Shown: positions 6,705 to 10,088 of the stretch, piece by piece
Position numbering within the stretch: the first letter of the stretch is position 1
Layout: each line of letters opens with the position of its first letter
DNA from: Aureimonas phyllosphaerae
GTDB lineage: Bacteria; Pseudomonadota; Alphaproteobacteria; Rhizobiales; Rhizobiaceae
Direction of reading: 5' to 3'
Length of the DNA stretch: 64,000 nucleotides
NCBI RefSeq assembly: GCF_900113065.1
Contig: NZ_FOOA01000016.1
Coordinates: 1 to 64,000 of the forward strand
The notes under the pieces: generated by a model
The model's database searches: none
Told to the model about the DNA's origin: nothing
The model's input: the letters and a program-made list of their open reading frames with translations, nothing else
Translations under genes and position numbers: made by a program

Positions 6705-9700
6705 ATGAACGGCCGCCAGCGCATCCTTCCCGTCCGCCGCGAATACAATCGCTGGGTCGCCAACCAGACGCTGGAAGACTACGCGCTGCGCTTCACGGCG
6801 AAATCCGCTCGGCGCTGGACGGCCGCGCGCGTCTCGCAGACGGCGATCGGCGCGATCTCCTTCCTGGCGCTGGAAGCCGTCGGCGGGGCGATCACCCTGT
6901 CCTTCGGCTTCGCCAACGCGGTGGCCGCGATCCTCGCCGCCACCGTGATCCTCTTCGTCACCGGCATCCCGATCAGCCTTTATGCCGCGCGCCACGGCGT
7001 CGACATCGACCTCCTCACCCGCGGCGCGGGCTTCGGCTACATCGGCTCCACCGTCACCTCGCTGATCTATGCGAGCTTCACCTTCATCCTCTTCGCGGTG
7101 GAGGCCTCGATCATGACGGCGGCGCTGGAGCTCGCCTTCGGCCTGCCGCTGTGGATCGGCTACATCGTCTCGGCCGTGGTGGTGATCCCGCTCGTCACCC
7201 ACGGCGTCACCTGGATCAGCCGCTTCCAGCTGTGGACGCAGCCGCTTTGGATCGGGCTGAACCTCCTGCCCGTCGGCTTCATCCTCGCGCAGGACTGGGG
7301 CTCGGTGGAAGCCTGGATGGCGTTTCCGGGGCTGGAAGCCACGGGGCCGGACGGGTTCGACCTCCTGAAGTTCGGCGCGGCGGCGGCCGTGATCCTCGCG
7401 CTGATGCCGCAGATCGGCGAGCAGGTGGACATCCTGCGCTTCCTGCCGGGCAACGGCCGCGCCAAGACGTGGAACTGGTGGTTCTCGTTGTTCGCCGCCG
7501 GGCCCGGATGGATCGTACTCGGCGCGCCGAAGCTCCTGTTCGGCTCGTTCCTCGCGGTTCTCGCGCTGCGCTCCGGCGTTTCCAGCGAACACGCCGCCGA
7601 GCCCGCCTACATGTACCGGGCGGCCTTCGGCTTCGTGGTGCCGAACGAGACGGCGGTCCTTCTCCTGACGGCCGCCTTCGTCGTGGTCAGCCAGCTCAAG
7701 ATCAACGTGATGAACGCCTATGCGGGCTCGCTCGCCTGGTCGAACTTCTTCTCGCGTCTCACCCACTCCCATCCGGGCCGGGTCGTCTGGCTCGTGTTCA
7801 ACGTGGCGATCGCGCTTCTCCTGATGGAGCTCGGCATCTACCGCGCGCTGGAAGCGACCTTCGGCCTTTTCGCCAATGTCGCGGTGGCCTGGCTCGGGGC
7901 GATCGTCGCGGATCTCGCGATCAACAAGCCGCTCGGCCTATCGCCGCCCGGCATCGAGTTCAAGCGCGCCCATCTCTACGACCTCAACCCCGTCGGGCTC
8001 GGCTCGATGGGGCTGGCGACGCTCCTGTCGATGCTGGCCTTCGCCGGTCTCTTCGGCGCGGCGTTGCAGGCGCTCTCGGTCTTCGTGGCGCTCGGCACGG
8101 CGCTCGTCACCGCCCCCCTGATCGCCTGGGCCACCGGGGGCCGCTTCTATCTCGCCCGCAAGCCGCACGCCGAATGGGCGCGGCGGAAGACCATCGCCTG
8201 CCGGGTCTGCGAGCATCCGTTCGAGCCCGAGGACATGGCGCATTGCCCCGCCTATGCCGCGCCGATCTGCTCGCTCTGCTGCTCGCTCGACGCGCGCTGC
8301 CACGACCTCTGCAAGCCGCACGCGCGCTTTGCCGCGCAGGCCTCCGCGCTCGCCCGCGCGACGCTGCCGCAGGCCCTCCTCGCGCGCATCAGCTCGCGCA
8401 CGGGGCGCTATCTCGGCGGCGTCTCGCTTCTGGCCTTCGTCCTGTCGCTGGTGCTTGGGCTGATCGACTATCAGGCGACGCTCGCGAGCCCCGAGGATTC
8501 CGAGACGATCGCCGCCGCGCTCTGGGCCGCCTTCTTCATCCTCCTCATCGTGTCGGGCATCGCGACCTGGTTCTTCGTGCTGGCGCAGGAGTCGCGCCGC
8601 GTCGCACAAGAGGAGTCGGCCCGCCAGACCAGCCTTCTCCTCAAGGAGATCGCCGCCCACAAGCGCACCGACGCCGCGCTGCAGGCCGCCAAGGAACGGG
8701 CGGAGGCGGCGAGCCTTGCGAAAAGCCGCTATGTCGTGGGCATGAGCCACGAGCTGCGCACGCCGCTCAACGCCGTCCTCGGCTATGCCCAGCTTCTGGA
8801 AGGGGATGCCGCGATCCCGCGCGAGAAGGCGGGCGGCATCCGCACCATCCGGCGCTCGGCCGAACACCTGTCCGGCCTCATCGACGGCATCCTCGACATC
8901 TCCCGCATCGAGACAGGCCGCCTGACGCTCCAGCGCTCCGACGTGCGGCTCGACGATTTCCTCGCCCAGATCGTCGACATGATCCGCCTCCAGGCCGAGG
9001 CCAAGGGGCTCGTCTTCCGCTTCGTGAAGCCGGCAAACCTTCCCGAGGTCGTGCGCACCGACGAGAAGCGCCTGCGCCAGATCCTGATCAACCTCCTGTC
9101 CAATGCGGTGAAATACACCGAGAGGGGCACCGTCACCTTCGAGGTCGCCTATCGCAGCCAAGTCGCGATCCTCTCGGTCACCGACACCGGCCCCGGCATC
9201 GCCGAGACGGAAGCGGAGCGCATCTTCGAGCCGTTCGAGCGGGGCGATGCGGCCCGCGGCAAGCTGCCGGGCCTCGGCCTCGGCCTCACGATCACCCGCC
9301 TTCTCGCCAGCCTGATGGGCGGCGACGTGACGATGGAAAGCCGCCCGGGCGAAGGCAGCCGCTTCGCCGTGCGGGTCATGCTGTCGGCCGCCTCGCCGCG
9401 CCCGGCCGCCAAGGGCACGGTCGATGCGCCCGAGCCTGACGCGCCGGTGCGCGGCTATGCCGGCCCGCGCCGCACCATCCTCGTCGCCGACGACGACGAG
9501 GCGCATCGCGACCTGATGGTCGAGCTCCTGCGCCCGCTCGGCTTCATCGTTCTGACCGCCGCCGACGGGCCGACGGCGCTCCGGCTCGTCGCCGAGATCC
9601 GCCCCGACCTCTTCCTTCTCGACATCCAGATGCCCGGCATGGACGGCTGGCAGCTCGCCCGGCGGCTGCGCACCGAGGCGCAGGACGGGGCGATCCTGAT

Positions 9701-10088
9701 GCTGTCGGCGACGCTCGCCGAGATGCCGGCGCCCGGTCTCGAGGCGGAAGACGATCCGGGCGTCGCGGGCGCCCTGACGAAGCCCGTCGACCTCCGGGCG
9801 CTCCTGTCGACGATCGGCCGCGCGCTGGCGCTCGACTGGACGCGCGACGAGCCCGCGCTGACCGAACCCTCGTCGCCGGGCAAGGCTGCGGCACGCCCGG
9901 ACGCCGCCGACCTTGCCGAACTCCGGCGCCTCGGGCGGATCGGCTTTGCCAAGGGGATCGAGCGCAAGCTCGCGGCCCTCGAGGAGAACCCCGCCAACCG
10001 CGACTTCGTCGCCCGCCTGCGCGAGCCCGCGCGCGACTTCGACTGGAAGAGCTTCACGGCGATCCTCGAGGAGACCGACGATGCGTGA
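6705..10088 (+). CDS. NCS1 permease-like hybrid sensor histidine kinase
   Basis: 1127 residues. Residues 1 to about 480 resemble a nucleobase:cation symporter (NCS1, cytosine/purine permease): about 12 hydrophobic helices, with SLYAARHGVDIDLLTRGAGFGY and MPQIGEQVDILRFLP. Residues about 495-540 form a Cys-rich cytoplasmic segment (CRVC, CSLCC, CHDLC). Two further helices follow at about 565-630. A histidine kinase comes next, with H-box MSHELRTPLNAVLGY near 681 and ATPase boxes NLLSNAVKY and GLGLGLTI. A receiver lies at about 922-1040, with its phospho-Asp in LLDIQMPGMDGW. It overlaps the next gene, a LuxR-type regulator, and is divergent from urtA, so it may sense urea or a nucleobase breakdown product and control urt genes (inference). 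The layout recalls CbrA, where a sodium/solute symporter domain is joined to a kinase. Confidence 0.88.
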   Translation: MNGRQRILPVRREYNRWVANQTLEDYALRFTAKSARRWTAARVSQTAIGAISFLALEAVGGAITLSFGFANAVAAILAATVILFVTGIPISLYAARHGVDIDLLTRGAGFGYIGSTVTSLIYASFTFILFAVEASIMTAALELAFGLPLWIGYIVSAVVVIPLVTHGVTWISRFQLWTQPLWIGLNLLPVGFILAQDWGSVEAWMAFPGLEATGPDGFDLLKFGAAAAVILALMPQIGEQVDILRFLPGNGRAKTWNWWFSLFAAGPGWIVLGAPKLLFGSFLAVLALRSGVSSEHAAEPAYMYRAAFGFVVPNETAVLLLTAAFVVVSQLKINVMNAYAGSLAWSNFFSRLTHSHPGRVVWLVFNVAIALLLMELGIYRALEATFGLFANVAVAWLGAIVADLAINKPLGLSPPGIEFKRAHLYDLNPVGLGSMGLATLLSMLAFAGLFGAALQALSVFVALGTALVTAPLIAWATGGRFYLARKPHAEWARRKTIACRVCEHPFEPEDMAHCPAYAAPICSLCCSLDARCHDLCKPHARFAAQASALARATLPQALLARISSRTGRYLGGVSLLAFVLSLVLGLIDYQATLASPEDSETIAAALWAAFFILLIVSGIATWFFVLAQESRRVAQEESARQTSLLLKEIAAHKRTDAALQAAKERAEAASLAKSRYVVGMSHELRTPLNAVLGYAQLLEGDAAIPREKAGGIRTIRRSAEHLSGLIDGILDISRIETGRLTLQRSDVRLDDFLAQIVDMIRLQAEAKGLVFRFVKPANLPEVVRTDEKRLRQILINLLSNAVKYTERGTVTFEVAYRSQVAILSVTDTGPGIAETEAERIFEPFERGDAARGKLPGLGLGLTITRLLASLMGGDVTMESRPGEGSRFAVRVMLSAASPRPAAKGTVDAPEPDAPVRGYAGPRRTILVADDDEAHRDLMVELLRPLGFIVLTAADGPTALRLVAEIRPDLFLLDIQMPGMDGWQLARRLRTEAQDGAILMLSATLAEMPAPGLEAEDDPGVAGALTKPVDLRALLSTIGRALALDWTRDEPALTEPSSPGKAAARPDAADLAELRRLGRIGFAKGIERKLAALEENPANRDFVARLREPARDFDWKSFTAILEETDDA

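Follow-up and report, generated by a model that had tools for sequence, protein, structure and literature searches.

Fusions of an N-terminal LeuT-fold transporter domain to a histidine kinase are known from the SLC5/STAC kinases CbrA, CrbS (MxtR) and RpuS; here and below, statements on published systems reflect the accessible portions of the papers concerned. In CbrA the Na2 site is filled by a lysine, K196 (PMC13022988), and activation by CrbR and RpuR needs a local inverted or direct repeat (PMC7918813, PMC5715377, PMC9100948). The transporter-kinase fusions found in this literature are all of the SLC5 type, and the coupling of transporter to kinase is unsettled there. The window analysed in this study is a 64,000-nucleotide stretch of Aureimonas phyllosphaerae (contig NZ_FOOA01000016.1, positions 1 to 64,000), and its gene of interest (6705..10088, + strand, ATG start) encodes a permease-like hybrid sensor histidine kinase of 1127 amino acids. 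Like CrbS/MxtR and RpuS, this sensor carries a receiver domain. It differs from the SLC5/STAC kinases in that its sensor domain is NCS1-like and not SLC5, in that an eight-cysteine module and a two-helix hairpin occupy the place of STAC, and in that it neighbours urea and amide genes rather than acetate, pyruvate or histidine genes. By analogy, it appears to work as CbrA and CrbS transceptors do, built from another transporter family and another coupling module. We consider it likely that the protein derives its sensor domain from a transporter, responds to urea or short amides and, through its partner regulator, switches on the urt genes.

The gene was delineated from the open reading frame list, Pfam, AlphaFold2 (AF2) and Foldseek. 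The order of parts that an earlier reading of the sequence alone (the sequence-only reading) had claimed, namely permease helices, a Cys-rich segment, two further helices, kinase and receiver, was confirmed by the open frame, Pfam, AF2 and hydropathy. The kinase half passed the Pfam cut-offs for HisKA (residues 673-738; 8721..8918, +), HATPase_c (785-892; 9057..9380, +) and Response_reg (925-1037; 9477..9815, +), and the catalytic motifs of a hybrid histidine kinase were found: the H-box SHELRTP with the His at residue 682, the N, G1 and G2 boxes, and the receiver acceptor Asp 973. In the AF2 model, helices extend to about residue 477 and are followed by a short beta-hairpin segment with the cysteines and by long helices at 565-594 and 596-664; hydropathy maxima at 569-587 and 602-620 fit two extra helices, which were assigned as a membrane hairpin leading into the signalling helix (approximately residues 565-625; 8397..8579, +). 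No STAC family was among the Pfam matches of the sensor, the presence of a STAC model in that library being unchecked. The partner regulator (10081..11001, +; 306 amino acids) overlaps the kinase gene by 8 bases and has REC and GerE (LuxR-type DNA-binding) domains over the Pfam cut-off, with a weak PAS-like match below cut-off in its middle. Across the spacer, and divergent from the pair, lies urtA (5246..6550, - strand), which encodes the binding protein of a urea/short-amide ATP-binding cassette (ABC) transporter and scored 557 bits against TIGR03407 (cut-off 492.75). The sequence-only reading was thus also right about an overlapping LuxR-type regulator and about urtA as the neighbour.

Relatives were gathered by a genome scan, which gave at least 589 stretches encoding a relative, fused or not, of which the best 80 were kept, so that the set leans toward near kin. 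Together with three samples (family, class and phylum) and a number of plasmid and phage records, these nearest loci yielded 164 fused kinases, or 149 after 15 near-copies (≥97% identity) were dropped. Broken or partial sensor copies (e.g. L065 and L090, in two genomes) were removed by a length and score filter, L091 was left out as containing nothing recognisable, and L184-L213 were left out, most of them being represented by longer or other stretches; incomplete contigs (L173 and L252, for instance) were retained. Of the 61 genomes in the family sample, 18 contained a sensor relative, as did 27 of the 385 in the class sample; each figure includes the window's genome and a few partial matches. 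The arrangement had been called unusual from the sequence alone, and this did not hold: these counts, together with a phylum sample in which 52 of 398 genomes encode the cysteine module, show that it is widespread. The gene order of the window recurs in relatives from all three samples, so the arrangement is not a matter of chance.

Linkage of the gene pair to urt, also claimed at the outset, was borne out, since urtA was present in the stretch read for 130 of the 149 non-redundant fused sensors, and the outcome of no linkage did not occur. When urt, urease and formamidase/amidase genes were counted together, 141 of 149 had at least one. By sample, urtA was seen in 78 of the best 80 named loci (one exception lying at a contig end). 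The family sample had it in 14 of its 18 loci; in the class sample, where 26 loci were taken and one partial and one unrelated locus omitted, 20 of the 24 fused loci had it. For the phylum sample, 35 loci out of 57 fused matches were read, with urt, urease or formamidase in 34 and urtA in 25. The partner regulator accompanied 159 of the 164 kinases, the exceptions being one kinase at a contig end and four short kinases (L043, L064, L248 and L249). These four lie beside a formamidase and an AmiS/UreI gene, without urt, and form the earliest branches of the tree; L043 has no receiver by Pfam, and the length of the other three points to the same absence. The proposed ligand class of urea and short amides is well supported by this context. 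Of the ligands proposed in the sequence-only reading, urea agrees with the urt, urease, formamidase and amidase neighbours, which point away from allantoin-like compounds and nucleobases.

The closest relatives of the window locus are a 99%-identical Aureimonas contig and then L048, at 80% identity, which has a urease alpha gene past urtE. The window starts at the first base of its contig, so the region past urtE is out of view. In the A. phyllosphaerae genome, urease is on a different contig from the urt/sensor locus; a position of this urease at the end of its own contig was considered and dropped, as its coordinates are 165-166 kb on a contig of 203 kb.

Both urea- and amide-linked loci occur among the relatives, by labels assigned in this analysis. 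An amide label was given to 66 sensors, 59 with formamidase/amidase (two of these with both UrtA types) and 7 by an amide-type UrtA alone, and a urea label to 75, 27 with urease in the stretch read and 48, including that of the window, on the strength of the other UrtA type only. On a FastTree tree, in which long branches meet, 6 changes between urea and amide were counted with the 8 unlabelled sensors excluded; with these included, urea required 9 changes and amide 7, compared with shuffled means of 50.1 and 48.6, so that both contexts cluster on the tree. Urea- and formamidase-linked sensors thus appear to have swapped about six times. Many of the relatives share a urtABCDE-formamidase neighbourhood that is already described, as the second urt set of Bradyrhizobium, in Pseudomonas veronii Yu15 and on Klebsiella pKPN-307 (PMC3098086, PMC13209695, PMC5506382). 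Amide rather than urea uptake has been proposed for the Bradyrhizobium and Yu15 sets: the formamidase-linked Bradyrhizobium set was argued to carry amides and not urea (PMC3098086), and formamide was suggested as the cargo of such a set in Pseudomonas (PMC13209695). The accessible text on these three clusters does not discuss the sensor (PMC3098086, PMC13209695, PMC5506382). In another paper, an 'HK' (hybrid kinase) and a LuxR regulator are named beside a urt operon and, in the text available, left unanalysed (PMC13296017).

A census of gapped palindromes upstream of the kinases identified TACGT-N6-ACGTA in 35 of 149 loci, compared with 0.0 per shuffled set. Exact matches to TACGY-N6-RCGTA were found in 62 of 149 upstream stretches (approximately 320 bases each), compared with 0.2 in a first-order Markov control; allowing one mismatch raised these figures to 79 and 2.2. 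The loci, 3.02 Mb in all, contained 125 exact sites, of which 103 were at the start of a kinase or urtA gene, from 150 bases inside to 450 bases outside the open frame, and 97 of the 149 loci had such a site; rows related by kinship are not independent, but sites were present in the family, class and phylum samples. The other 22 exact palindromes were located away from kinase and urtA starts. In the window, TACGTCA-AA-TGACGTA (6630..6645, no strand assigned) lies in the spacer between urtA and the kinase gene and is the proposed site of the regulator. No other perfect TACGTCA-N2-TGACGTA exists in the 4.7-Mb genome; two other places match with 2 mismatches each, as in the control. An inverted heptamer in a 7-2-7 arrangement fits a NarL-type dimer. 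Six relatives (L081-L083, L057, L051 and L080) showed no urt, urease or amidase in the stretch read, and four of them (L081-L083 and L057) retain the exact upstream palindrome.

The permease domain (approximately residues 20-480; 6762..8144, +) was compared with known transporters by predicted structure and by profile. An AF2 model of residues 1-665, built with 50 sequences, had a mean predicted local distance difference test (pLDDT) score of 81 and a predicted template modelling (pTM) score of 0.80. Foldseek placed CodB (7qoa; E 7.9e-9, TM score 0.75 by target) and Mhp1 (2jln, E 8.2e-9, TM score 0.67; 4d1a; 2x79) at ranks 1-5, followed by Nramp from 2.4e-5 and SLC5 from 3.8e-5. SLC5 structures were therefore more than three orders of magnitude behind CodB, and the domain was not identified as an SLC5 (SSS) domain. 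With hhalign, the permease profile matched six NCS1-like permeases (99.9%, E 7.5e-36, 431 columns) and a CodB-family alignment (98.3%, E 1.6e-14, 379 columns), and the CodB model NF008241 matched fused relatives directly, at best with 8.5e-9, under its curated cut-off. Because of the Foldseek ranking, the profile matches and these sub-cut-off matches, the domain is, by prediction, of NCS1 descent, from a branch missed by the public models. The sequence-only reading had proposed an NCS1-like N-terminus; fold and profile agree with it, no non-transporter fold appeared, and the Pfam family itself, PF02133, gave no match.

That link came solely from fold and profile comparison. By Pfam, neither the window protein nor any other in its genome matched PF02133, although relatives L044 and L244 passed the cut-off, and no transporter family was named for the domain by Pfam or NCBIfam. 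Sequence searches of the PDB with the permease domain gave nothing credible (one chance ribonuclease match, E 8.4), and those using NCS1-like permeases as bridges gave nothing or CodB at E 1.4. Four further NCS1-like permeases (L245, L246, L247 and L253; open frames of 481-585 amino acids) fell under the PF02133 cut-off or had no score, which points to an under-annotated branch; three of the four lie beside hydantoinase genes.

Residues of the domain were compared through a CodB alignment across the 149 sensors, with a gap near transmembrane helix 6 that could shift that part. Like CodB and Mhp1, the sensors share the predicted fold and profile, the D-x-x-R-F motif of transmembrane helix 6 and the equivalent of N280 in transmembrane helix 8 (N334). 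Unlike CodB and Mhp1, they are fused to a kinase, give no PF02133 match in the window protein, have Lys-Ile for the Na2-site threonines and have lost the Trp108/Phe204 pair. The Na2-site residues T278/T279 of CodB (PMC9379551) align with K332 (149/149) and I333 (148/149; 7698..7703, +, in the window), Q105 is replaced by an invariant T126, and Q236, E239, Q240, D242, K332, N334 and N337 are the same in all 149. The position of Trp108 (residue 129) is F in 66 of 66 amide sensors, L in 63 and F in 12 urea sensors, and F in 4 and L in 4 of those unlabelled, and the position of Phe204 (residue 230) is never aromatic. A CodB-like sodium site and aromatic substrate pair are thus absent from the fused sensors, as far as the alignment holds. 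Since the sodium site is replaced, the comparison suggests that the permease domain is at least not sodium-coupled; a lysine at that position, together with the missing aromatic sandwich, would suit a small non-aromatic ligand bound without sodium.

The same residues bear on two other explanations. The domain might be a working importer of urea or amides joined to a kinase, with the transport flux as the signal, as discussed for CbrA. The NCS1-like fold with its conserved polar core, the existence of stand-alone relatives and the uptake of histidine by the SLC5 domain of CbrA (PMC13022988) are in its favour, but the CodB sodium-site threonines are Lys-Ile throughout the sensor family and the presumed ligand is already imported by the neighbouring urtABCDE, so we regard this as a doubtful, if serious, alternative. 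It is less probable still that the domain does not bind urea or amides and senses something else, such as another nitrogen compound (a nucleobase or hydantoin, for example) or the state of the membrane or its ions, with urt as one nitrogen-scavenging output. CodB binds cytosine and Mhp1 hydantoins (PMC9379551), and hydantoinase genes lie beside three of five kinase-free NCS1-like permeases (L245-L247; not the closest, L244) and beside the Paracoccus permease L044. Against such a ligand, the sensors themselves neighbour urea and amide genes, and the aromatic pair of CodB is not kept (F or L at 129, never aromatic at 230, in an alignment-dependent comparison).

The only cysteines of the sensor (499, 502, 514, 522, 525, 526, 532 and 536) form a module (residues 499-536; 8199..8312, +) that was delimited by conservation and AF2 and is predicted to be treble-clef-like. 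All 149 fused sensors retain the full set of eight, which is compatible with metal binding; two stand-alone permeases, of Acinetobacter and Arthrobacter, retain four of eight and one of eight, respectively. A profile search with the module in the phylum sample gave 58 matches in 52 of 398 Pseudomonadota genomes, with at most 14 candidates scored per genome, so that a distant carrier may be missed. Of these matches, 57 were in open frames of 894-1365 amino acids, the same 57 kinases as the fused matches of the permease search, and the last was in a 50-amino-acid frame (E 0.001). The AF2 model of the isolated module (pLDDT 79, pTM 0.59) was most like RING, FYVE and PHD fingers, weakly so (best PDB match E 0.42, none with E ≤ 0.001), and Pfam matched one of 14 module members to a treble-clef family, at 0.0093. 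The module is likeliest a structural zinc finger, as judged from these models. Of the metal or redox role suggested in the sequence-only reading, the metal part therefore fares better, with a weak structural match, than the redox switch. If the module were instead the real input, as a metal or redox sensor, the permease domain would be a passive anchor. The conservation of all eight cysteines in the fused sensors, and of few in the two stand-alone permeases, would agree with this; the zinc-finger character of the best, weak, structural matches and the presence of permease polar residues as invariant as the cysteines speak against it, and we find it the most improbable of the alternatives.

The preferred explanation, in which a former transporter domain senses urea or short amides, can be put as a sequence of steps. 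Most likely, urea or a short carboxamide is bound in what was once the substrate pocket of the NCS1-type domain. The resulting state, bound or occluded, would be relayed through the eight-cysteine module, a probable zinc finger under the membrane, and the two-helix hairpin to the kinase. Phosphate might then pass to the overlapping LuxR-type regulator, either directly or via the receiver and a separate phosphotransfer protein. The regulator would bind TACGTCA-N2-TGACGTA between the divergent promoters, turning on urtABCDE and the sensor operon, and elsewhere the same device may control urt-formamidase-amidase clusters.

Several results weigh against this explanation. No urt, urease or amidase was seen for 8 of 149 relatives (one on a 4.8-kb contig), 52 of 149 loci lack an exact palindrome near a kinase or urtA start, and the loose pattern is not enriched across the window (2 matches with at most one mismatch, against 1.45 expected). 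A single residue dividing urea from amide sensors was sought, and none tracks the switch consistently. Position 129 was rejected as the specificity residue: L is the majority in just two of six urea lineages, with further occurrences in a single row of a third urea lineage and in four unlabelled rows. This position changed 4 times on the tree, an independent-pairs test was not significant and a sign test gave 0.25-0.5; post hoc hypergeometric values were 0.022 for changes in at least two lineages and 0.096 for at least one. As the core is common to both flavours, the domain could be reading something shared by both.

Taken as a group, these proteins may form a widespread sensor class with an NCS1 scaffold, a lysine in the sodium site, a binuclear zinc-finger coupling found essentially only here in the phylum search, about six changes between amide and urea, and its own conserved operator across Pseudomonadota, including Klebsiella plasmids of human isolates; we lean only slightly towards this wider proposal. 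If true, a second transporter family would be used as a kinase sensor; its coupling module would differ, its ligand class would be predictable and its operator is predicted. It would also supply the urt operon, and formamide and amide use in soil and plant-associated bacteria, with a specific regulator. The repeated changes between urea and amide provide a natural experiment on which pocket residues set specificity. In the open-access literature, neither an NCS1-kinase fusion nor such a regulator of urt was found; a subscription paper may be missed.

The other urt genes of the window follow urtA on the - strand: urtB (3459..5579; by phmmer to annotated UrtB), urtC (2302..4173) and urtD (1460..3568), both by similarity, these three given as open frame extents with provisional starts, and urtE (613..1308), by similarity. 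Convergent with the regulator gene is a gene for a methyl-accepting chemotaxis protein with a NIT domain (PF08376, E 1.7e-52; 11006-13231, -). A chemoreceptor of this type was dismissed as a general partner, occurring in only 4 of 149 loci, the window included (E 1e-20); L080 has a different chemoreceptor close to the regulator gene.

Among viral contigs, 28 pattern matches were obtained, none of which was a relative. Among plasmid records, the sensor gene was named 'ATP-binding protein', 'response regulator', 'ArcB', 'PotE' or 'hybrid sensor histidine kinase', or had no name. Klebsiella accounted for 342 of 531 plasmid records matching the permease region, counted by the permease match alone. 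A plasmid record of Sinorhizobium fredii NGR234 also contains a permease-region relative. On a Klebsiella pneumoniae IncFIB/IncFII plasmid (L041; CP024516.1, 7909-18264), the sensor and regulator genes are accompanied by urtABCDE and amiF, and an ABC-transporter/acetamidase cluster starts approximately 5 kb past the regulator. In an Acinetobacter record (L045; 13147-14763 and 14959-18423), a stand-alone permease of the family takes the place of urt opposite the divergent kinase gene, which has the palindrome upstream; the record is labelled as phage and its annotated neighbours look chromosomal. On an Arthrobacter plasmid (L042; 11932-15887), a stand-alone relative with no significant Pfam match lies beside an aliphatic amidase and a ClpB/ClpX-like ATPase, and is a candidate amide permease.

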